Shown in pieces: positions 2,440 to 62,200 of a stretch of 64,000 bases of DNA; the first letter of the stretch is position 1, and each line of letters starts with the position of its first letter. This DNA comes from Lineus longissimus (taxonomy: Eukaryota > Nemertea > Pilidiophora > Heteronemertea > Lineidae). The translations under genes and the position numbers were made by a program. Where the stretch lies: the NCBI RefSeq assembly GCF_910592395.1, contig NC_088319.1, positions 1,612,001 to 1,676,000 on the forward strand, given 5' to 3'. The notes under the pieces are model-generated. The model saw only the letters and a program-made list of their open reading frames with translations, did not search any database and had not been told where the DNA came from.

Positions 2440-3157
2440 CATACCCAGTTTCTCTAATCCACAGATACACTCTGTTTGGAAAGTCACCGTTAACCCAACA
2501 TCTATATTTCATCTTCTTTGGGTTAGGACTGAGTTACTTCAATTTTGGTGAGTACGACGCATGAATTTATCCATAGTTTTTGCCATAGGGAAGGAGGGGG
2601 GGGGGGGGCACGGCTGTTCACAGCAATATCTTGACCAGAGGCGTTTCTTGAATGATCCATTATCCATAGGCTTCCTTGATCTTGATGTTTTCTGGGATTT
2701 CTTCGATTTGAGAAAAGTAGGCCTTCGATCAAGCTTCATTGGTTGCCTGTAGCAGAAAGGATTGACTTTAAGGTGTTGCTTCAGGTGCACAAGTGCCTGC
2801 AAGGTGCAGCTCCCCAGTATCTGATGGACCTCATTTCTAGAAAACTTGCTGCTCGCAGGACCCGGTCCACTTCCTTCATAGAACTAGAGGTTCCGAGGAC
2901 CAAAACGTCATTTGGTGACCGCAGTTTCAAAAGCTATGGACCGCGGTTATGGAACACTCTTCCATGTCACATTCGAGACTCTGAGGACACTGAACAATTC
3001 AAACGAGCTATAAAGACATGGCTGTTTGTGAGAGCTTTTGGGGAGGGAGCGCTGTGAGCAAGGACCACCATGGAACAGCCCTCATAAGAGACTCATTTAT
3101 CTTTTTAGCTCACCTCTTAGCAGAGGTGAGCTTATCCCATACCGTGGCGTCCGTCGT

Positions 3158-3210
<53 letters not shown>

Positions 3211-6200
3211 CGTCGTCCATTAGCAGGGCACGTTTCGTAACTGTTAGAGCTATTGAGTTGAAACTTGGTACACATGTACCCTTATGTAATGACACCTTGG
3301 AGACCAAGTTTCGGTCCGATTCGTTTCATGGTTTGGCCACCAGGGGGCCAAACGTTAAAAGTGAAAATATGCAATATCTCCCTTAATAGTAGTCGGGAAA
3401 TTTTGAAAAAAATATGGTAGGTACTTCTAGCAAAGGTGCATCATATATCCTCCGGGTTTTTGATTTGACCTCCTTTTCAAGGTCACAGAGGTCAAATGGT
3501 GTAAATTGGCCGTTAGGATGTAACACGATGGCACGTTTCTAAACTGCAATGACTATTGATACCAAATTTGGTACACATTTACCCCTTAGTCAGGTGATCT
3601 CAGGGACTGAAGTTTGGTCCAATATGATTCACCACTTGACCACCAGGGGGCAAAATCCAAAAACCTTAAAAATGTGATTATTCCTTAACTTCTTGCCCGA
3701 TTGCCACCAATTTGATATCATGGGTACATCTAACAACCATACAGTATATGTCACACAGGTTTTTAATTTGACCTTCTTATCAAGGTCACAGAGGTCAAAT
3801 GGCATAAATTCGCCGTCAGGCCGTAACTATGGCACGTTTCTTAACTGCAATGACTATTGATCACAAATTAAGTACACATGTACCCCTTGGTCAGGTGATC
3901 TCAGGTACCGAAGTTTGGTGCGATCTGATTTGCCGTTTGGCCTCCAGGGAGGGGGCCAAATCCTAAATTCTTCAAAATGCCATTATTCCTAGTAATGACT
4001 TGCCCGATTGGCACCAATTTTATATCATAGGTACATCTAATTCTAACAACCATTCAATGTGTCACCAGGGTCTTCTTTGATTTGACCTACTTTTCAAGGT
4101 CACAGAGGTCAAATGTACTGTAAATTGGCCATTTTGGGGAAATTGTAATTGCTTGGACCTACATCAAACCTCACACTACATGACACAATACCATGCTCTT
4201 TATCCATCTTTCCTCCACATGAGGTGAGCACAATGGCCCTGGCCATTTCATTTATTTTTCGAAGAATTTGGGCAAGTGCTGCATGGAATAGCAGATCTTG
4301 TGCTCTTAGCTCTTTATAGCAGTCATCCTCTGCTGAATGAAGAAAAATGCATTCTCGTCTAATGTGCTCACTACCTTGCTGATAGATGTAATAAATCCTT
4401 GTTAGATGTCGCTCGTTAACTTAGGATGGCAAGACATTTACCATGTAAGAGAAGAAGAATCTTAAATCAGGCCCAGCTACCAAAGTTGGGGGGGCCCAGC
4501 CAATTAGGCGTGAAATTGAAATCAGGTGCCTGCTCACAAACACAGAATGAGATGCAACAAACAACACTGTAATGATTTTTTAAGGTTGGATCTAAATTCT
4601 GAATATTGAAGAAGAAGAAGAAGATATAATGAGGGATGTCGGTGTGGCACCGTGGGAACCTCAGCACCTGTCACCTCAGAGGTCCCAGGTTCAATTCCAG
4701 GTCGGCCCTGGTACCCTCGTGTGTTAGACTAGAGAGGGCAACTCTCTTCGATGGCAGAGGTTTCCTCCGGGTCTCTGGTTTCCTCCTACTTACAATACAT
4801 GTATTACATACAATCGCCCAATATTGCTCATAGAGAGCTTATAATGTCGTTATTGAAGTTCAGCTCTAACTTCAATGCAGTAAAGTTTGTTTATTATAGT
4901 GTCAGCCCTAGTGAAAGGGCCAGCAAGCTTTGGCTCATGAGACACTCTTTACTTCCAAACTCCTGTCTCTAATGGCAGTCGTCTGGCGAGAAGGCAGTTT
5001 GTACCCTATAGCTGGTGGCTAACCAACTGGCCGCATCGGTAAGAGGTCACCAGCGGGCCTCGAACCTTCGACCTTCCGTTCACGAGGCGGACGCTTAACC
5101 ACTTGGCCATCGAGATCGGGATACATCGAGATATATTCTTCTTTCCGATTCGTTGCAGGTTCTGAGATCGTGTTTGGACTAGCGAACGTTTTGATCATTT
5201 ACCTGGTGCTGCTGGTTGTTGGTGGTAATCTACCCAGTGTCATATTTTCATTTGTTTTCAACATTGTAAGTATAATTCGAGTTTTTTCCTGGCTTTCGAT
5301 TTGAGCGTGTCGGACCAACCAGCATTTTATCAAGTTTCCGCACGGATGGTTGCTGTACGACGTCCACAAAAATTTGCCTGTCAACAGTAAGTTGAACACG
5401 CTGCTCCTATGTGCTGGTGTTCCTTCCTGAAATTTGGAAAGGCAGGGATTTTGGAATAAGGAAAGAAAATGGCAGGATGAACTGATAAAAGGGGCAGAGT
5501 TCGCACTCTTCTGTGATAGAAAACGCATAGCTGTTTTGAAAAAGGGCACGGAGCACTCTACAGGGGCAGAGTAGGCCTACTGTGCCCTTCTCTATTTTCA
5601 TCTTGAAGAAACGCAATGCTGTATTAAAGGATATTTGAGGGGGGAGCTCTTGCCAAAGCCATCACCTCTTCACAGGAGGTTGTGTCGTGAAGGGCTTAAT
5701 TCGTCCCTATAAGGGGCCTTCGACCCCAAATCCTCTTGGTAGCCCTCCATGGTACAACTTCCTGTGACCTCTCTGACGTCACAACAGATTGCAGAAAGCA
5801 GTCAGTTGAGTATAAGCATTGACAAGTTTTAAATTGACTCAATCCAATGTTGTTGTTTTCAGGGCTACCTCGTTATAGCGTATTATTATACATCTTCCCA
5901 AAACTATGATATCAAATGGACCACGCCTCACTGTGTGCTCACGCTCAGGCTAACGGGACTTGCCTTCGACGTCTACGATGGCACAAAAAAACAGGTACAG
6001 GGTACTTTGGGGGCGGGATTGAAGTAAGAAGAGGGCGTGCAGATGATGTCATCATGGAAAACGATACCATTTACGATGAGGCAACCAGAACTGCTTGGGT
6101 TGTTGCAAAATATGGAAGAGGTCAAAAAGCAGTCAAACATGACCAAATCACATTTCATTTACTTTAACTTTTTCAAGGCGTTTTAGAATAGAAATTGATA

Positions 6201-11190: not shown

Positions 11191-14100
11191 GTTAAACCCA
11201 TGGTGCACATTTTGTAACCGTAAGACCTAGAGACTTCAATTTTGCATTTCTGGATACTTATGGTCAAACTCTACTTTCAAAACAAAATTTGTCGCCATTC
11301 GACCTACTTCCTGCGAGCGAGAGTGCATGAAGGAAACTGGCCTATATCGGCCTAGGAGCAGCAGAATTAGTCAAAATATGCTCTAATATTAAGATAAAAT
11401 TCTTGAAAATCTATTTTATTGAGAAAAAGTTCAAAATTTTAACAGGAGAGGGCGCTACCTGCCTTTTGATTATTTCTGCCGATTCAAATTCCCGCCCGAT
11501 GACGTCAGCCATCAATGAAGTCTCCTATTTGCCAGTTCTCAAAACATGGCAGCTAGGCCTACACAACAAAAGCAGCAGCTCCAGGAATAAATCACTGTTC
11601 ACTTCAGCTTCGTAATCGATTGTACCCCCACTTTATTATGTTTTGTGTGGTGTTCCTATTCAATCAACGATGTAAGGCCTTATTATGTTGGTTTTAATTG
11701 AGAAGGCGCATTATAAGCGGCGTACGAAATACCGAAGCGGAGACAAAATGGCGGCATGTTGTTTACTCCATGTGCAATAATCTTGGAGCTCAATGACACT
11801 CAAGTACCCAATTTTCTGCTTAAAAAGTAGTCTGGTAGGCGATATTATCACTAGTTCGTTTCAGGTAGTCATAAGGTGTTTAGGGACTACTTTCAGAAAT
11901 TAGTTCTTGAAAATTTGGCCACATTTCTGTGAAAACGATATCGGAAGTGCATGCTCTGTTCGCGATGACATCGCCAATGTATTTTGAAGTGGAGAATTCC
12001 CACAGTATGTGCAGTGAATCGGCATGATTCTGTTCGCCTATTAAGTTTTAGTTCTACGATTCTTTCATGAGTAAAAAGTAGACATTCTAAGCAATGCAAT
12101 AATGTCACTCCCATAAAAATTGATTGGAAATTGAGGGAGCTACGGCATTCTGTTCGGCAACTGGCAGCGCTGAAAAAATACCAAATGGCACATTTTAAAA
12201 AGCGCTCATTGGACAACGTAGGGAACCGTCAGAAATGACGTCATCGCTGGTCTAAATAGAAAACTACGGTGGCGCAGTGGTTTAGCATTAACTTCGTCAT
12301 GCAAGCTTCAGCAACAAAACGATTTCTCATGAATGATTTATTTGATCATCATCAGCTTGTTTCCCCTGATAGTTAAAAAAATGATTTACAATTTCCATCA
12401 AAGTTTTCTATTTTGTGTATGGTCACAAGTTATTTAACTGGCAAGGAGCCAAGCAGTTTTGAATATTCGCAGGAAAATACTTCGTACTTGTTAACGAGGC
12501 TATGACAATGAGTATCCTCATTCATGGCATAAACTTCATGTTTCGGTAAATATTTTCATACAATGATTTCACCCGAATTATGGTCAGGATTGAGGAATGA
12601 ACAGTGGCATAATTATGTCAACCAAAAACATTGGTACCGTAGTGAACGCAAAAGGATATCAAATACCATGGAGCATGCCATTTTCATGCAAAATGAACTA
12701 AACACCGGGAAGATATTAATGATATTAACTCAGCTGAGCGCCAGGCCCTTGGGCCTCTTGTTGTCTTTTTGAGAAAAAATGGCTTCGAAGTTTGGAACTG
12801 AAAATGCATCAGGAAAATATTTGAGATTTTCTTTCATTAGAGTTTTTCAATTGGCCTAAATGCTCTGAAATTTGGAAGACAGACAGGTCATTGAATGGGC
12901 ATTACCAGGGTATGGGTAACCCCAAAATATTGGATATGGTGCGTATTGGATTTTGCGATGAAACTTCAAATGTTGTGGGGGGCAGTGGTAGGTGCTGGTG
13001 CATGAAATTATACTTGTGAGAAGTTTACAACCTTCACTGCTAGAATGAAAGGAAACTGTTTACGGGCAATACAATGCCCTTACCACACCTCAGTGGGTAT
13101 CGAAGCAATTGTTTACATCATCAAGTCATATGCGAGCTTCTGAATGGAGCCCTATTGTCCATATATTCGTCAGGCCGAGTCTAGCTTACTGATCTGTGCT
13201 GTACTCATAAACAGAAGAGAGTGAGTTTCTGAATGGAGCCCTATTGCAGGCCCTATTGTCCACATGTTCATCAGGCCGAGTCTAGCTTACTGATCTGTGC
13301 TGTACTCATACACAGAAGAGAGTGAGTTTCTGAATGGAGCCCTATTGCAGGCCCTATTGTCCACATGTTCATCAGGCCGAGTCTAGCTTACTGATCTGTG
13401 CTGTACTCATAAACAGAAGAGAGTGAGTTTCTGAATGGAGCCCTATTGCAGGCCCTATTGTCCACATGTTCATCAGGCCGAGTCTAATGCTGGACTTATA
13501 AACCAGAATTGAGAAGGTTCATTTTCACCTGCCGAGAAAATGTGACCCGCCATGGCAAGATGAGTCGCATGTCGCTCAGAGCTTGACAGGTTGAGACGGA
13601 CTGGTTGTTCATTTCACTATTGTCTGCCTTTTGGGAAATCTGAGTGTATCAATTTCTTCTATTTTGTCCTGGTGTCATTTTAGGCTCATCTTCTGTGCGA
13701 CATGCGACTCATTTTGCCGTGGTGGGTCACAAATGTAGAATGTAGGCCTTAGCATGTTGGTGGTGCAAAATGCACTTTTACCCCAAAACACCCCAGAGAA
13801 ACGATTTTTTTTCTGAGATAACTGCATAGGGTCTTTAGGAATTGCTTCCAATTCGCACCGCAGAGCCCATTCAATTCAAACAAAACATTAACTAATGGAC
13901 TTCAGTAGATCAACATGCGCCAGTCGTTGTGATGTCATCCTTTAAGACCAGCAGGTGTCACCTGTCATTCTGGTGACGCCTGCTCATTAAAGGATGACCC
14001 AGCTAAATGTGCGCATTATTACTGATCTCTGTGGCGTAAAATGACATTTGCACATATGTTGACATGTGTCGGAAGCATATTTCAAGGGGAAAAAAATGTT

Positions 14101-34281: not shown

Positions 34282-37200
34282 CTACTGTTTTAATCTAAGA
34301 TTATACCATCCAGGCGCACATATCGTGAAACTGAAATGAAGAAAGATAGCTGTCAGACCCCAAATTTGATATTTCTGCCCGCCAAATACTGGCATCGTAT
34401 AACTGTCCATATTCCTCATGCTGGATGGAAATCGATTTCGTTCTTTCTCCCGGATTCGAAATATTGTATAACGAGCGCTTCTTGGATCACATAGCGACAC
34501 GATAGGACATGTGAATACCTCCTCTACCTAAAAATAGATACTGGTATCTGAGAAATTCATACATTCTGGCACGAATCAATAAAGAGGAGTCTTTATTTAT
34601 TTTTGGTTCTAGTCTGGTGAGCGGATCATAGGTGTATGTAGCATCTGCAGGATTGATGCCAAGCGACTGTCGAAATCGTCATCTGGTAACGTTGTGACGT
34701 TCACTGGCATTAGTAGGACAAAGAATCATTAACGATCAGTCTTTCAGGGTGTCCTTAAAAGTGAGGTGTCCGCTGAGGGGAGTTCGTCTGTATTTCCGTT
34801 TTCCCTCAAATAAGTGAACCCTTATGCTAGTGACAAGGAATTGGATCTTTTTTATATGAAATACTTTATCTGAAAGAGGCTCAGGCCAGCAAATATTAGG
34901 GAATAAGAAATTATGCACAAAAGCTCTAGGGCTCTGTGGCAGCATTCCCTAGGACAGTAGACTGTTACCAGAAACAGACTGACTGTCTAGCGTGCATCTC
35001 AAACATTTTAAACGCAGAAGAAGAAATTACACCGCTAATAAGTCGAAATAGCTACCTCATTTTCATCCAGTTTTAAATCTGTGACGTCTACTTCTCCTAG
35101 GTTGGCTATCACACCCCACACAGCATATTTACCAGCTTTCTGGAATAAAAAGTTATCAAATCAAAGTTCCATGTCCCTGCCAACGTCAATTTGTACTTGT
35201 AGCTCACCGCACCAAAACCTCGTTCTTCAAATTTTGTTGACATTAACTTTGAGAATAGTCCCGTAGGCCCAGTTGTTCAAAGCAAGTAATATCACTAACG
35301 CTGGCGTTAACTTAGTGTCAGTCTAAAAGGCTTAACTGAAGGAAATAACGTCAAGTTATGTTACGCCAGTATTCGTGACAAAGTTTGTTTTTAACGACCG
35401 GACCCTGCTCTCTACTTGTCTTTTCAAAAGTTATCTCCCAATCTCTCTATTTTTCCTCTGCATGTACCAATTCATATTACTTAAATATTTTTTTTTCCTG
35501 ATGATGTTAATAAGCATCATGACTGGATCATTTTGCTATCGACTTTTCTTATTCTCGTATTCTTTGCAAGTCATGACACGCAATGAAAACTTCCTGCAGG
35601 TGAAACGGTGTTCTCCACAGGGCCATTTGTCAGGCCGTCCCACCCTACCTTGAGAAAACCCTGCAGAGAACTCTGATGAAACTTTCCTGGAAGACTGGAA
35701 CATACTTACACTCGGAAATCCAGACTTCATCATTCCCCAGATGTCCACACGATCTGATGGAGAACTCTGATGAAACTTTCATGTAAGACTGTACCATACT
35801 TACACTCGGAAATCCAGACTTCATCATTCCCCAGACGTCCACACGACCTGATGGAGAACTCTGATGAAACTTTCCTGGAAGACTGGAACATACTTACACT
35901 CGGAAATCCAGATTTCATCATTCCCCAGACGTCCACACGATCTGATGGAACACCAAGCTCCTCATAACACTCTCTAACAGCCGTGTGGATTAAATCGTTA
36001 TCACTTGGATCCATTTTACCACCTGGAAAACTGAATGCAACAAAGGTTCCATAATCAAGACACCATTCCTTTTAGAAAGAAGTACAAAGTTACAAATCTT
36101 CAGTACTTGTCATTAGCCACACCAGGTTATGTTCACACTTCAGTTTCATTTAAATGCTAGGGTGACTCTATGGGTGCCAATATGTGCCCGTCACAGCAAA
36201 ACCAGGCGCATGTCGCTCTAAGCTTGTAGGTTGAGACAGACTGTTAATTTCACTGTTGTCTGTCTTTTGTGCCATGAAAGTACATCAATATCTTCTATTA
36301 TCTCCTGGTGTCATTTGAGCTCATCTCCTGGGCGATATATATGCCTGGTTTTGTGGCGACGGGTCACATACATATAGTTTTTAATCTTGCACCATTTTCT
36401 AGTGTGTATAAACCATCTCAGTGTACAGAGGCAAAAGCATTCTTGGCAGGCTAAAGAAGTTTTCTAACACCTCAAAATTTGGATGAATATCTTGCAGGGC
36501 ATTTTGGCCACGGACGTCTCTTGTGATTCAGAGAGTAGATAGAGCAGTTAAAGGGAACTGAAACCGCCAAGCCAGTTCGTATGACCTCGTTTTCATTTCC
36601 CGCGTATCGGGTGATCAGAACGAGGCATGAATGAAACATGGCGCCTAGCTGTCAATCATTGAGTGACGTCACTACTATGGAATTTACTACGAAAACTCAT
36701 GAATGAAAGATCGCATGACTCACGTGATTCTCACATGATTCTCAATAATAACAAATTGAAATGCGCATGCTCGGGCACTGGGGGCGGAGCTACAAATCTG
36801 AACTCGAATAGGAAGTTGGAAAATTGACTTTCTTGGGGGGTGAAAGTCGAAAAGTTGAATAAATTGCTCGGCGGTTCCAGTTCCCTTTAATATGAGTGTA
36901 TTGTTCCCTGCAAGACATAGCACGATTTGAGAGCTTAGGTAGAGTGACTGCCAAGGAAGCAGAAGGTCTTGAGTTCAAACCCCTGCTTTTCATTCGAACA
37001 ACCAATTCTCACCTGACTTCCCCCTGATGATCGTTCAAGTCCGTCGCCCTGAGAGTGAACAGAACTGACGGCTCACCATTCACTGTACAGAAGGGAATCA
37101 GAACACAAGCCCGAGGACTCTCACGCCCAGTTTTCCCATCATACATCCACGGAAATTTCATCAGTTCCTTCGAGGTAGCCAACGCTTTCTGCACCCTGTG

Positions 37201-49442: not shown

Positions 49443-49827
49443 ATGTTATGAACAACAGGATATAGCCTTCCATTAAACAAAAACATCGCAACAAGTATCG
49501 TGGATATTGGATCGACGTCTCACCACTTTTTATCAGACGCCATGCGGAAGGGTATGCAGGACTGTAACGGTGGCACGGAGCTTCACCCCTTAGACACGAA
49601 AACGGACAACTCCGAGGTTAAAATGATTCAGAATAACAACAGACTCTTACACGGCGGACCGGCAGAAAATGGCGGACCAAAAGTGCGCGTTCAGAAACAT
49701 AAAACATTCACTCGACGGCGGACGAAGATGGAACTTTATCTCATCGCGTTGTGCGTGCTGCTGTTTTTAGCGTGTGTTAGTTTCATCATCATAGCATTTA
49801 CACGGGATCAGCAAAACAGATCACAAG
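49443..49827 (+). CDS. M13 peptidase first coding exon: cytoplasmic tail and membrane anchor
   Basis: It begins after the acceptor GTTTGATCTTTCAG. The ATG at 49542 has a GCC before it and a stop codon upstream in frame. It encodes a tail of about 66 residues, RRRTKMELYLIAL, then a long hydrophobic segment, and ends DQQNRSQ plus one base at CACAAG/GTAAGA. The last 24 bases and the donor recur twice downstream at 152-bp spacing. Confidence 0.9.
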
Positions 49828-52800
49828 GTAAGAAAACGACTTTATTTGGTGCATATTGTCAAGAATATATAAAGACTAAGAATGTAGAAGTAATTATACA
49901 ACAGCATTTTATCCAGCACTAGGTTCCAAATTCCGACACAAGGGGGCTTTTATAAGGGATCAGCAAAACATATCACAAGGTAAGAAAACGACTTTAGTTG
50001 GTGCATATTATCAAGAATATATAAAGACTAAGAATGTAGAAGTAATTATACAACAGCATTTTATCCAGCACTAGGTTCCAAATTCCGACACAAGGTTTTT
50101 TTTATAAGGGATCAGCAGAACAGATTGCGAGGTAATATGAAGCAAATTTGTTTTGTTTTTATGCATATTATCATGAATAAATAATAAATAAGAATGTGGA
50201 AGCACTGCTATACCAGATACAGCAGCACCCTATCTAGCTCTAGGTTCCGAATTCTGAAACTAGGGGGCTTAAATGAAAACCATACAAAAGTCTTTCTTCA
50301 ACATTGTGCTCATCTAGTACCAAGGTCGTTCAATTTCATTCATGATGTCGTTAATCTCGTTAAGTTGATCTAATTAGCAGTCACTTAGCGAGCAGCCTGA
50401 CATCAATGTACTTGGCTTCTCTATTCTAATCATCGCCTCGGGGATGTGACATTTGAGTTAACCCTTTCTTTCAAGCCGGATGAATGTCACTTTAAGGGAG
50501 CACGCTAGAGTTATTTTGAAGCAAAAAAGTAGAACGCAAAAAGCTGAATTGTGTTTCTCATTCTGGAGGCCCTCTATAGGCCATGGACCGTATCTAAAAG
50601 AGGGCTTAGCTTTTGAATTCCTCAATGTCGTCATGAAAGACATATTTTTGTGTTTCGCTCACACATGATCGTCTGATACAGACATGGACACCCGCAATTT
50701 TCTCTCTACCAGTTATCTCCGGCTTACAGTAGTTACTTCAATGCTGGCTCACCATCTAAAGCAGTGATTTTGAGGCGAATTGTAGTATTTACTGTGGGTT
50801 GGGGATATGACCTCGAAAAAATAGGAAAACTTTTCCAGCAAATCCTACCTCGAACTAAGGCATGCCCTCGGGCAATGTGGTGCCAATCCTCCAGGGTGCA
50901 TAATCTCAATGAAAAACAACTACAATATGATAAAGACCGTTTTTTATTTTGCTTCCGATGCAAGGCATCCAGGAACTCCGACAAAGGAAACAGCCAATAC
51001 TATCACTCGAAGCGAATATCACGGCCAGTTACGGTCATCTCAGTCGCTTTAATCTCCCGTTAATAACCTTCCGTCACTCTGTAGGCGACACGTCTCTTGA
51101 ATAACGATAGTCTGTTGAGAAACACGATCGCATCTTGAGTATGGTTTATCCGTGATAAGCGTGGCGTTTACGACGTCAGGAAACTTGTCACAACTTCGAT
51201 CAAAGATGACTGGGGCTGTAACAAAAGCCGGTGTTTTCCGTCGATGTCTTGAGGTGGTTATTACTGGCCAGGGTTTAGCTGTGTAGAGGCCAGTGAGATT
51301 TACTATTGGTAATCCCGGCCAGGGTCCAGATGTGCGAGATTACATTGGTGATCAAATCAGAGCGCGCTGCAGTCTTCTGTCAAGTCCTATAACTATCCAC
51401 ATGAATCGACCTTGAGCAAGTCACTTTATTTATCCCACCTTTGTGATGAGACACAAGCCTACTTATCCTGCTTGGCCGTAAATGGACTTATAGGGACACC
51501 TCGGGCACAGGATAGCTAATTACAAAATCACAGCCACAGTTTACCAACGGGCCTACAAGGGCTTCGATGGTTTAATGATGATAATGATGATGATGAAAAG
51601 TCTGTGATAAGCCCTTTTGAAATGATTGCCCTGTTGTCAAAACAGTTATCGATCAGACCTCATACAGCATCTCATCCAGCGTTAACCACAAGATCAAGCA
51701 GAGTGCTACCTTTCCCTGGGAGTTTTAATGGCCGCTTGAAACGAGGGATCTCCGTCCGGCCGGAAAATAACGAGGCTGACATCCGCTGGTATAATCAAAG
51801 TGATGATACCATTTTGAAAGATGACACATTAACCCTACAGTGGTGGACGACAGGTTTCATGTCACTTTGTCAAGGAAATTTGAGATATATTTTATACATT
51901 GTCAGGCCTGTTTATTCTTTGTGAGGGCCTGGTTTTCAAAGATGACACGTTGATTTAAACCCTACGATCGTGGATGGCAGGTTTCAGGTCACTTTGTCTG
52001 GGAAATCTTTCAGTGAAATCTTACACGTGGTGTCAGTCTTACACTACACGGGCCATTTTACACTTTGACTTAAAGGGTAACTCGTGTCAAATTTCACCAT
52101 ATAATGTTTTAGCTGTTTTTGACAAATGACTACGTCACTTTTTCATAAATCGGTAAGGTTTTCGAATCGAAATGCACATTTTCTAAAAATTGATGGTTTA
52201 ATCCCGCCCGGACGGCTCGCTTCGATGCCGTTTTCGTTGATGACGTCACAACATGAACATTTTCGCGGTCGCGGTGGTTTACATTCAGCGATTTTTATAA
52301 TAAATCTAATCAAAAATGGAAAATTTGAGCTTTACATTTGTGACCAAACATTAAAAACGGACGTATTTCCGCAAAGTTGTAAATCACATCATAGTATCAC
52401 TTTAAGGCAAATTGATTTGTGCAATATGCTAAAATCATTTTGAAATAAGTCGAAATTACACTTTCTGAGGTGGATTTTCACCAAGGGTTTTACACATGAC
52501 TCTATAAGGTTATTTTTCGATTTGACCTGCTTTTTGGCATCCAGGCAGCCATCTTGAAATCTTTGGCATTTTTCGCCATTTTGCATTACACCGTCCGCTG
52601 TTGAGCAACATTTAGGCACACACACTGACGGGGAATAACTGAAATAGGCTGCGGCTCTTTACGGCATTATTAGATAAAAAGCTCGTAATCAAAACCCACC
52701 TCAAGAAGATGAACATGGCCAAGTCCGGGAGATGCCAGTGCAAGACATCTGATCAGACACAAGAGCATGTGCTCCAGAACTGCGAACTCTGGACACCGAG

Positions 52801-55800: not shown

Positions 55801-56212
55801 TATTGGACCAAACTTCGGTCCCTGAGATCACCTGACTAAGGGGTAAATGTGTACCAAATTTGGTATCAATAGTCATTGCAGTTTAGAAACGTGCCATCGT
55901 TACATCCTAACGGCCAATTTACACCATTTGACCTCTGTGACCTTGAAAAGGAGGTCAAATCAAAAACCCGGAGGATATATGATGCACCTTTGCTAGAAGT
56001 ACCTACCATATTTTTTTCAAAATTTCCCGACTACTATTAAGGGAGATATTGCATATTTTCACTTTTAACGTTTGGCCCCCTGGTGGCCAAACCATGAAAC
56101 GAATCGGACCGAAACTTGGTCTCCAAGGTGTCATTACATAAGGGTACATGTGTACCAAGTTTCAACTCAATAGCTCTAACAGTTACGAAACGTGCCCTGC
56201 TAACGGACGACG

Positions 56213-56262
<50 letters not shown>

Positions 56263-59200
56263 ACGACGGACGCCACGGTATGGGATAAGCTCACCTCTGC
56301 TAAGAGGTGAGCTAAAAAAACAAACATTGATTGAAGAAATCAGTCTAGTAGTTTTCGCACAGCGTCCAAAAAGGACGTGGACATTTACTTCTGAAAAAGA
56401 CTAGAGCAGAATTGACCTTGATTTAGTCAAAACTGTTTTTGATGGTAGATTAGGATTTCTCTTGATATCATTTGATATTCGAACCTTACTTTTAAAATTG
56501 TGATTAATTTTACTGAACTCGATCTTGATCAAATTTAATCAGAAATAAATCATCGCAAAATAAATTTCCTCCTGATCGATTATCGCTGGCAATGCAAATT
56601 TTACACGCACAGATTACAGCAGTAAGAAATTTGTCAAACTCGTTCCTTGGTTCCTTTCTATGGACTCTAATGCATTACGTGTATTGTACTGTATTACCCT
56701 GGGAATGAGGTTGCCTTGGCGCTAATTTGATAAACGTATCAGACTAATCAAATTCACCTTCGGAGATTTCATTTCATCGATTGCGTTTCCTGGGGCAGAT
56801 TAGGTGAAGTCACTTTCAGTTAATAGTGTCATGCTGCAATTTTAACTCCCGACCCCTGAAGTCAGGTGTAAATGTTCTAATTTTCTCGGAGAAAGATGTG
56901 GGGATTTTTGACTCGGGTGTTAAATTTCAAGATGATGAAAAAAGCGTGCATTCTGCAGAAACGTTTCTTTCAGCAGTGCGGTTTGCGACCGGTTTTAGCT
57001 TTGACAAGATATCAGTCTGAGGATGTCCCCTGGATATTGTGTGGATGCACGGCTGTGAATTTCCCGATTATTCTATCCTATTCCAGAATCCCAATATTCA
57101 TTTTAGAGTAATTCTGTCAACCGAAAAAAACGCCTCTGAGAAGTCTTCAAAGATGTCCTTATGCAAGAGATAATCTCGTAGAAATAATAAAAATTGTGGT
57201 GATGAAAATGTACGTGGGTGCTATTGTACTTTGAATGTTCTCTGAACGGAGTAGCATTTATTTTCTCTTTTTCATTCGCATACTTCAAATGAACGCATCT
57301 CCGTCTTTGATTGCAGAACACGTTTATTTAGAAGAAAACTGTTTTCTTTTAAGTGGATATACTGTCTTTTATGTCTACATCAAACATTTGGCAGTCGCCA
57401 GCCGAAGTTCTGTTGATAGTCAAGCTGTATTTGACAGTTGAAGGGGAAGCATTTATTTGAAATCGTGAATTTCTCAGGAAGCAGTTTGTTGCTGATAAAG
57501 ATATCTTCTGCAGATTTGATTTGTGGGCAAATTTGTTTGTTCAAAAATTTGAAAATTGAAGTTGAATTTGTGTTAATACGTACTGAGTATGAATATCAAC
57601 ATTGCTGTTGTGTCGACTGATGATTCTTGAAAGATTATGTTTGCACTCTACTCTTAAAACTAAAAAGCCACAGCCGCACTTGCTCCATAAAGAGTTAATG
57701 ACGATCCATAGATTCTGCCATTTCACGCACGTCCTTAAATGCGATTAGCCCCCCCAAATCAACGACTCGCGAGTCTTACTGGAATGTAAGAAGCCACTTA
57801 AGTTGTTGTCATCTCGGCTTTTCAACAACTACTTTCATCTTCGTAAGGTTGCCGTCAGCATGCTAATTAACCCGACACCTAACAGACGATATTAGCTATG
57901 TTGACTTCAGAGCACAGCTCGGATCAGATTCTGATTCTGGCTGAATGTCTGTTTTTACAAGAAGTGGATGGCAAATTAGGAGCAGGATTTACGTGTTTTG
58001 ATAATCTGTGTTCATTGGCTAGAAAAACTAGAATTTATATAAATCTTGCCAAAAAGGTGTATTTATAAATACATGAAAGACAGATTCTAAAAGAGTGGAA
58101 TTTTTTCTTTGTTTGCCTCGGGTCCATTCCGTCAAATCCAACACAGCAGTTGCAACTCGGTTGCATCATCAAGATCTCAATCAAAAATTAAGACTGCTGG
58201 TGCAAAAACAAAGCCAAATGTATCCACATTGTAATTGATGCAATTTAGAATGAGTGCGGACCCTAATCATAAATCAGCAGCACCATATAAAAAATCCGAC
58301 AACTTGACAATTCTCCGCCATTTCCCTAAAAAAGGTCATTAGCTTCGGTTTGAGTTTAAGAGCAAAATAGAGTGGCAGTGAACTCTTCCGTCTGGCCAAA
58401 AAATCTCCATAACTATCATAGTGTATGTTACAAGATCATGGGTTGCAAGCAATTCCAATTAATTTGATGCACTTTTCGATTTCTTCCAGCTATTAGCCGA
58501 TGGTGTTGGAAAAACTCTTGATTCGCGAACAGACTCTTCGAATCAGACAAGGCTCAGAACCCTGGGAACTAAGATGGCTTATCAACACTGATATTCAATT
58601 TATAACAGCATTGTTTACTATACAAGATTTTGGAAGTACATCGGACCAGATTTACTCAGATTTTTTATAAGTTTTAGAAATATATTCTACCAACCATTCT
58701 CTGTTGTTCCAGCTTTATTAGAAGAGCCGAAAATCAAATTTGATTCGGATGCAACATATAAAGCCAAGATCTTGTATGCTTCATGTATTAATAACAGTAA
58801 GTACCCTATAAAGCCAAGATCTTGTATGCTTCATGTATTAATAACAGTAAGTACCCTATAAAGCCAAGATCTTGTATGCATTGATAACAGTAAGTACCCT
58901 ATCGAGCCAAGATCTTGTATGCTTCATGCATTAATAACAGTAAGTACCCTATCAAGCCAAGATCTTGTATGCTTCATGCATTAATGACAGTAAGTACTCT
59001 ATCAAGCCAAGATCTTGTATGCTTCATGCATTAATGACAGTAAGTACTCTATCAACCCAAGATCTTGTATGCTTCAGCGCATTAATGACAGTAAGTAGGC
59101 CTATTCTATCAAGCCAAGATCTTGTATGCTTCATGCATTAATAACAGTAAGTACCCTATCAAGCCAAGATCTTGTATGCATTGATAACAGTAAGTACCCT

Positions 59201-62200
59201 ATCAAGCCAAGATCTCGTATGCTTCATGCATTAATAACAGTAAGTACCCTATCAAGCCAAGATCTTGTATGCTTCATGCATTAATGACAGTAAGTACTCT
59301 ATCAAGCCAAGATCTTGTATGCTTCATGCATTAATAACAGAAAGTACCCTATCAAGCCAAGATCTTGTATGCTTCATGCATTAATAACAGTAAGTACCCT
59401 ATCAAGCCAAGATCTTGTATGCTTCATGCATTAATAACAGTAAGTACCCTATCAAGCCAAGATCTTGTATGCTTCATGCATTAATAACAGTAAGTACCCT
59501 ATCAAGCCAAGATCTTGTATGCTTCATGCATTAATAACAGTAAGTACCCTATCAAGCCAAGATCTTGTATGCTTCATGCATTAATAACAGTAAGTACCCT
59601 ATCAAGCCAAGATCTTGTATGCTTCATGCATTAATAACAGTAAGTACCCTATCAAGCCAAGATCTTGTATGCTTCATGCATTAATAACAGTAAGTACCCT
59701 ATCAAGCCAAGATCTTGTATGCTTCATGCATTAATAACAGTAAGTACCCTATCAAGCCAAGATCTTGTATGCTTCATGCATTAATAACAGTAAGTACCCT
59801 ATCAAGCCAAGATCTTGTATGCTTCATGCATTAATAACAGTAAGTACCCTATCAAGCCAAGATCGTGTATGCTTCATGCATTGATAACAGTAAGTACCCT
59901 ATCAAGCCAAGATCGTGTATGCTTCATGCATTAATGACAGTAAGTACTCTATCAAGCCAAGATCTGGTATGCTTATGCATTAATGACAGTAAGTACTCTA
60001 TCAAGCCAAGATCTTGTATGCTTCATGCATTACTGATAGTAAGTACTATATCAAGCCAAGATCTTGTATGCTTCATGCATTACTGATAGTAAGTACTATA
60101 TCAAGCCAAGATCTTGTATGCTTCATGCATTAATAACAGCAAGTACCCTATCAAGCCAAGATCTTGTATGCTTCATGCATTGATAACAGTAAGTACCCTA
60201 TCAAGCCAAGATCTTGTATGCTTCATGCATTAATAACAGTAAGTACCCTATCAAGCCAAGATCTTGTATGCTTCATGCATTAATAACAGTAAGTACCCTA
60301 TCAAGCCAAGATCTTGTATGCTTCATGCATTAATAACAGTAAGTACCCTATCAAGCCAAGATCTTGTATGCTTCATGCATTAATAACAGTAAGTACCCTA
60401 TCAAGCCAAGATCTTGTATGCTTCATGCATTAATAACAGTAAGTACCCTATCAAGCCAAGATCTTGTATGCTTCATGCATTAATAACAGTAAGTACCCTA
60501 TCAAGCCAAGATCTTGTATGCTTCATGCATTAATAACAGTAAGTACCCTATCAAGCCAAGATCTTGTATGCTTCATGCATTGATAACAGTAAGTACCCTA
60601 TCAAGCCAAGATCTTGTGTGCTTCATGCATTGATAACAGTAAGTACCCTATCAAGCCAAGATCTTGTATGCTTCATGCATTGATAACAGTAAGTACCCTA
60701 TCAAGCCAAGATCTTGTATGCTTCATGCATTGATAACAGTAAGTACCCTATCAAGCCAAGATCTTGTATGCTTCATGCATTGATAACAGTAAGTACTATA
60801 TCAAGCCAAGATCTTGTATGCTTCATGCATTGATAACAGTAAGTACCCTATCAAGCCAAGATCTTGTATGCCTTATGCATTAAGGTGCAGAGATACTGGG
60901 TGAATTCTTTATAGTCCGAAACCTAAACAGGAAATGAAATGAAAAATGCTTTTTGCTATAACTTATATCATGTATCAATTAGGGGTCAGTCAACACACGG
61001 TATACATGTAGTACAGTGTCACCATTCAGCATGACCTCTCTAATCAGTACACCTCTCTAAAAAGGACATACCTGTCAGTCCCGAGGGTGTCCTTAATAGA
61101 GAGATTCTACTTCATCATATTTCCTCTTTCAGCACAGATTGAAGAGATCGGTGATCAGCCATTAAAGGATGTCCTGCTAAGCGTTGGAGGGTGGCCCGTA
61201 GTGCAGGGTGATTGGGACGAATCCAAGTTTCACCTTGAGGCGATGCTGACGAAACTGAGGAAGGAATATAACGCGCCGATATTTATCGAGTCGTTTGTCG
61301 CGGCCGATGACAAGAATTCCACTGTTCGCATTCTCCAAGTAAGAAGTACCGAGGAACGTCCATTAGGGCCTTGCATTAGGGGGTTTCTGCTAAAGCAGAA
61401 TGGCAGGGGGGCCCTGTTGCCCTTTTTTTCAAAAGAAAATGCTTTGCCATTTTAAAAGAAATAAGTAAAAAGTTTGTTTCTTCAGTTTTTATGATTAGTA
61501 GAAGTGGTCTGACACCTGATAAAAGGCGTGTTTTATAATACACAATTGCTTCCTTAAAATCTCTTTTGTACCATAAAACTATACAAATTGTTGACTTCAA
61601 ATAAAAGTAGAAATTGCCACGATGAAAAATGCCCTTTTTTGGCTGAAAATTACTCCTGCCTTTTTTGAGTCCAAAGTTGTCCTGCCTTTTGAAATCCTAG
61701 CTGAAACACTAATTCCTTCTTGTTTCCCTATGTTCTAGATAGACCAAGCTGGGCTCGGTTTTCCAAGCCGTGATTACTTCTTGGAGACGAAGCGGTCTGA
61801 TCATGTCGAGGCTTATGTAAAATATATGACGAGTGTCGCGGTGCTGCTGGGAGCGGACAAAGCCAGGGCCGACAGGGAATTTGCCGAGATGTTGAAATTC
61901 GAGACGGAACTTGCCAACGTAGGTATCATATGAAAAAGTGATCAAATTTGATTCCATGTTTACTTGGATATTGGTGGATTAAGGCCCTTGTCATCAGAAC
62001 ATTGAAAGCGGGGGCATAGCTAGCAGGGGCATGGGAGTATAAGTCTCCCTAGAAGTCATATCACTAAAAATGGGGTTTTGTGTGTGATTTTGGCCTGAAA
62101 AATGTCATTTGGCCCACCAAGAGCGAGCCTTGCTCCCTCCTCCAGTCCAGGCCAAAAAGCTTGCTATGTTCCTGTAAAGGGCGTATATCACCATGAGGTT

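Follow-up and report, generated by a model that had tools for sequence, protein, structure and literature searches.

We describe a 50-bp minisatellite that spans the 5' splice site of a coding exon in the nemertean Lineus longissimus, within a window of 64,000 nucleotides (contig NC_088319.1, positions 1,612,001 to 1,676,000 of the forward strand; all coordinates below are those of the window). Exon 4 of a gene coding for a neprilysin-1-like peptidase ends inside the first of 43 tandem units, and copies of its end and of its splice donor recur through the intron that follows. This is probably a neutral minisatellite that was born over a donor and has been tolerated, as the first donor is the one that gets chosen. 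A chance tandem duplication across the boundary between exon 4 and intron 4 would have produced the 50-bp unit, and slippage or unequal exchange would have carried it to about 42 units, the copies then behaving as neutral intron sequence. Functional mRNA would be made from the first donor, which would define a short 84-nt exon, and the later donors would be mostly ignored; where used, they would yield transcripts with a broken frame, which would probably be removed by decay. Donor choice, transcript degradation, and neutrality in expression are what we infer from an array whose decoys, near-identical donor sequences, downstream stops, and lack of detectable constraint are observed directly, as set out below.

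A 43-unit array over a splice donor

Tandem Repeats Finder reports the array at 58757-60883 (period 50, 42.7 copies, 95% match, score 3736), and alignment to the consensus unit splits it into 43 units, the last of which is incomplete (Table 1). Thirty-eight units are exactly 50 bp long; copies 3 and 9 have a 7-bp deletion, copy 7 is 57 bp, and copy 25 is 49 bp. Unit 1 consists of the last 40 nt of coding exon 4 (58757-58796) followed by GTAAGTACCC. An initial annotation of this DNA had described the exon's donor as amplified into a 43-copy minisatellite, and both analyses bear this out, although the exonic part of each unit, given there as 36 nt, is 40 nt in the unit alignment. Of the 42 units long enough to include the donor position, 40 keep GTAAGT, the authentic donor counted in; the exceptions are copy 12 (GAAAGT) and copy 28 (GCAAGT), and copy 43 is without the site. 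The annotated 42 further copies are thus present, but the extra intact donors among them, put at about 40, number 39. On the same strand, GTAAGT occurs 40 times inside the array and 13 times in the remainder of the window, and the array is far beyond chance. The later donors closely resemble the first: the nine-base donor ACA/GTAAGT of donor 1 is identical at 37 of the 41 later positions, donor 2 has a score of 2.21, like donor 1, and the upstream 40 nt of exon is nearly alike among copies.

Sequence similarity among the copies is best read as recent amplification and not as constraint. The initial annotation held that the copies change only synonymously, a claim that the substitutions refute. 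Relative to the array consensus, the exonic parts of 42 units show 13 substitution types, 2 synonymous and 11 nonsynonymous, compared with a random expectation of 23% and 77%, and we therefore reject the idea that selection has maintained the coding sense of the copies. Two of the 13 types are simply the differences between consensus and exon, AAA to CAA (Lys to Gln) and TGT to TGC; the exon's Lys codon AAA is retained only in copies 1 to 3, with Gln in 39 of the 43 units and Arg in 1 of 43. Stronger conservation of the donor within the unit was sought by a Fisher test of variable sites (1 of 6 in the donor and 14 of 44 elsewhere), which gave it no support (p 0.65). Identical adjacent pairs of units number 19 of 41, against a mean of 8.0 and a maximum of 15 in 5,000 shuffles, and an excess of this kind is as expected under local slippage. 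The consensus is matched exactly by 18 of 42 units, and there are 17 distinct unit types, in a patterned order.

We also note several minor features of the unit. A 10-nt palindrome, CAAGATCTTG, lies at 58765-58774 and recurs at the corresponding position of 38 other units, and is therefore intact in 39 of 43; it lets adjacent copies pair in RNA or DNA, and might favor expansion. In RNA folding, the exon together with units 1 and 2 is more stable than shuffled sequence (z -2.67), since the palindrome of one unit pairs with that of the next, but a mid-array stretch is not (z -0.18). Every unit also has a weak acceptor-like AG (scores of 2.28 and 1.64, compared with 1.04 to 4.23 in eight real acceptors).

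The host gene and the predicted products of later donors

By homology the host gene is a neprilysin-1-like peptidase of family M13 (neprilysin/ECE), in agreement with the initial annotation. Numbering the transmembrane exon as exon 1, nine exons can be joined in the window into an open frame of 499 codons; it begins at 49542 with the presumed start Met, includes a transmembrane segment, and extends to 63878. The 388 residues coded by the last seven exons match ECE-1 (5.9e-83) and neprilysin (3.9e-76) over the N-terminal M13 domain, and these matches span the joins. A protein search with the 388-residue query, of which we consider the best 120 of 132 matches, includes among the matches listed a 546-aa protein named 'neprilysin-1-like isoform X2' from Lineus longissimus (P0001), with 100% identity over 70% of the query. 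P0001 has the domains PF05649 and PF01431 and a zinc-site motif, HExxH, present as VIGHEITHGFDD; the exons of the window end before this motif. The label 'X2' leads us to presume that a longer isoform of this protein exists.

Reading frame and homology support the donor at 58797, inside unit 1, as the authentic donor of exon 4, through which the reading frame continues into 61133-61338. The matching in-frame acceptor, at 61132, is 249 nt past the array and has its own pyrimidine tract. In the model of intron gain by tandem duplication, the donor and the acceptor are both supplied by the duplicated unit; here the in-frame acceptor comes from outside that unit, and intron 4 does not fit the model.

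Each of the 42 donor positions was joined in silico to exon 5, and the product was read from exon 3 to exon 9. The frame is open with donor 1 only, confirming what had been annotated for the exon at 61133, and a stop is reached from all 41 later positions. That exon 4 is in frame with both of its neighbors through donor 1 only speaks for the neutral reading. For 40 of the 41 later donors the first stop is one shared codon early in copy 3, as predicted; the prediction fails for donor 2, which meets its stop slightly further on, within frame-shifted exon 5. Exon 4 would be 84 nt long via donor 1 and 2126 nt long via donor 42.

In 38 of the 41 decoy joins, the longest Met-initiated frame begins in exon 5 at MLTKLRKEY (for donors 7, 9, and 25 it begins further upstream), and this is exactly where P0001 begins. 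The start of X2 fits the use of decoys, and equally fits a transcript starting in intron 4 or retaining it, because the exon 5 reading frame, followed upstream, meets a stop before any Met. Skipping of exon 4 would remove 84 nt and preserve the frame, and would thus not be expected to lead to this start. The neprilysin-1-like model of a second nemertean, Tubulanus polymorphus (P0027), starts, by alignment, with MNTTQIK at the exon 4/5 boundary.

Alternative explanations

Several points weigh against a neutral array whose first donor is consistently chosen. The use of donor 1 is deduced from frame and homology, the nine-base sequence of that donor recurs at 37 of the later positions, and the start of X2 coincides with that of 38 decoy joins, such that decoy use could be substantial. 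Where donors are duplicated, strong competitors can all bind U1 and position then decides, so some decoy use is possible. If decoys were used appreciably, with U1 on many sites and intron-proximal ones sometimes winning, then frame-broken transcripts would reduce the amount of full-length peptidase in proportion to array length, and the array would act as a copy-number rheostat. We regard this as unlikely, although competition by decoys is possible from their sequence: beyond the shared donor sequence, all 41 joins run to a stop, the start at MLTKLRKEY is predicted from most decoys and not from exon skipping, and an intronic variable number tandem repeat (VNTR) in TERT alters splicing according to allele length, by other means as proposed in the relevant part of that report (PMC11830802). 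However, an intron 4 promoter or intron retention would account equally well for X2, and neither the substitution types nor the donor-site test gives a sign of selection on the decoys. In a more elaborate form, which we hold to be distinctly improbable, the array would be a length-tunable splicing attenuator, in which up to 39 extra U1 sites compete, output is set by the U1 level and by allele copy number, decoy products decay, and the worm tolerates donor arrays in several genes. The initial annotation had further suggested that U1 protects the intron from premature polyadenylation, for which the local signal is absent: neither AATAAA nor ATTAAA occurs in the array or in the remainder of intron 4, and introns 1 to 3, with 5, 3, and 4 of these signals, are without any GTAAGT.

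P0001, which starts in exon 5, and the truncated Tubulanus model, which starts at the exon 4/5 boundary, would both be explained by an internal promoter near these exons, unrelated to the array, that yields an N-terminally truncated peptidase. This seems quite doubtful; both proteins are database gene models, and a protein that lacks the membrane anchor and the beginning of the domain might be unable to fold. A process that targets donors, repeatedly duplicating exon ends together with their donors in the L. longissimus genome, appears very doubtful, although it has some appeal because two smaller arrays of the same anatomy, absent from the initial annotation, are present in the window, one at the transmembrane exon of the peptidase gene and one at a NUDIX exon on the other strand. 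Among 20 exons compared (nine peptidase, two NUDIX, four of a papain-type peptidase gene, and five of an MBOAT gene), a downstream copy spanning the donor is present at 3 and an upstream copy spanning the 5' end at 0. The papain-type and MBOAT exons were chosen by codon and splice-site score and our own reading, with Pfam backing pieces of them but not every exon, and for two exons, the transmembrane one and the first of the NUDIX pair, the 5' ends taken are respectively the start codon and the start of the open reading frame, not known acceptors. Among 580 positions drawn at random outside the big array, 60 also have a downstream spanning copy, 33 of them without an upstream one (across the whole window, 45 of 400 have a downstream copy), and the enrichment at donors, assessed after the fact, is not significant by binomial test (p 0.34 against 60 of 580; p 0.10 against 33 of 580). 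Tandem repeats are abundant in the window, exon ends included; with 33 of 580 random positions comparable, one such array on a donor is therefore unexceptional. Finally, it is highly improbable that the existence or length of the array was made by the assembler. With 18 units equal to the consensus the length could be misjudged, but the 17 unit types in patterned order argue otherwise, and the genome was assembled from 79-fold PacBio long reads, with HiFi libraries and Hifiasm, according to the sequencing details in PMC8593623, so that an array of 2.1 kb is unlikely to have arisen as an artifact.

Relation to known minisatellites

A minisatellite that supplies multiple splice donors is of a known kind, with IFI6 as the precedent; Turri, Cuin and Porter reportedly described the IFI6 minisatellite with its multiple splice donor sites in 1995. 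In both cases a minisatellite offers several donors to one exon, here with GTAAGT in 40 of 42 units. The IFI6 unit, about 12 bp long, preserves the frame, so that use of a later donor adds residues to the protein, in contrast to a unit of about 50 bp that includes 40 nt of exon and in which every later donor leads to a stop. Compared with the known kind, the Lineus array is therefore set apart by a longer unit, by many copies, and by a protein compatible with no later donor.

In human IFI6 (6-16, G1P3), two downstream repeat units act as donors and give three mRNA species, as stated in the portion of PMC4526556 on this minisatellite. Minisatellites at exon-intron boundaries also alter splicing in human segmental duplications, where the variable repeats average 30-bp units in four copies and, within the cases set out in PMC2812944, create new introns or extend exons in young paralogues. 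In contrast, intron 4 has an acceptor of its own beyond the array, and splicing from donor 1 would leave the Lineus copies within the intron. TERT VNTR6-1 is similarly an intronic VNTR, of comparable unit size and copy number (38 bp, 24 to 66.5 copies), that changes splicing and yields decay-prone isoforms; PMC11830802 proposes that the effect comes not from duplicated donors but from G-quadruplexes, which lie about 3.5 kb upstream of the exon concerned.

With the nine-base donor shared by most positions and the preceding 40 nt nearly identical, the decoys differ from the true donor almost only in position, and the array is thus a natural test of position in the choice of 5' splice sites. Were the attenuator reading true, the worm would be a natural library of donor-competition experiments. 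Given three exons of the same anatomy in 64 kb, a genome-wide survey of the species would probably find more.

Smaller donor-spanning arrays and other repeats

The array at the transmembrane exon has a third, decayed copy with a weaker donor at 50132 (score 1.93), and joins from its donors 2 and 3 lead to a stop. The NUDIX-domain exon, which we take to be NUDT8-like, joins 35139 in frame through its first donor, the join being open for 34 codons with the exon 3 piece cut at an arbitrary 120 nt; the later donors of this array shift the frame and lead to stops. The junctions of the NUDIX array have a 2-bp TC in common.

Table 1. Coordinates of the peptidase exons, the donor-spanning arrays, and the NUDIX exon in the window
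Feature	Position	Strand	Evidence or remarks
Exon 4, 84 nt, phase 1 at both ends	58713..58796	+	Acceptor TCTCTGTTGTTCCAG, donor GTAAGTACCC; in-frame neighbors; alignment to ECE-1 and neprilysin
First donor GTAAGT, supported as authentic	58797..58802	+	Only 1 of 42 positions that keeps the frame open into exon 5
50-bp minisatellite, 43 units, 40 intact GTAAGT	58757..60883	+	Tandem Repeats Finder and unit-by-unit alignment
Units 2-42, 41 later donor positions (39 GTAAGT, 1 GAAAGT, 1 GCAAGT)	58807..60848	+	All lead to a stop
Incomplete final unit, without donor	60849..60883	+	Unit alignment
Exon 5	61133..61338	+	First Met (MLTKLRKEY) is the start of P0001
Transmembrane exon, presumed start Met to donor GTAAGA at 49828	49542..49827	+	Extent from Met to donor only
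Second donor-spanning array, 152 bp, 2.2 copies	49797..50125	+	Donors 49828 and 49980 score 4.97 each
NUDIX-domain exon, donor GTAAGTATG at 35897, next exon from 35139	35898..36030	-	PF00293, E 2.4e-9
Third donor-spanning array, 94 bp, 3 copies	35666..35949	-	Donors 35897, 35803, and 35709, equal scores

A further array, at 13149-13486 (101-bp period, three GTGAGT), was considered as a donor array and rejected, as stops are present in all six frames printed and no exon is recognized. Two triplet runs (CGT or GAC) of about 20 units each, at 3152-3217 and 56206-56268, have similar surroundings and poly-Arg or poly-Asp frames; both are near arrays with a 301-bp period, and they are perhaps copies of one dispersed repeat.

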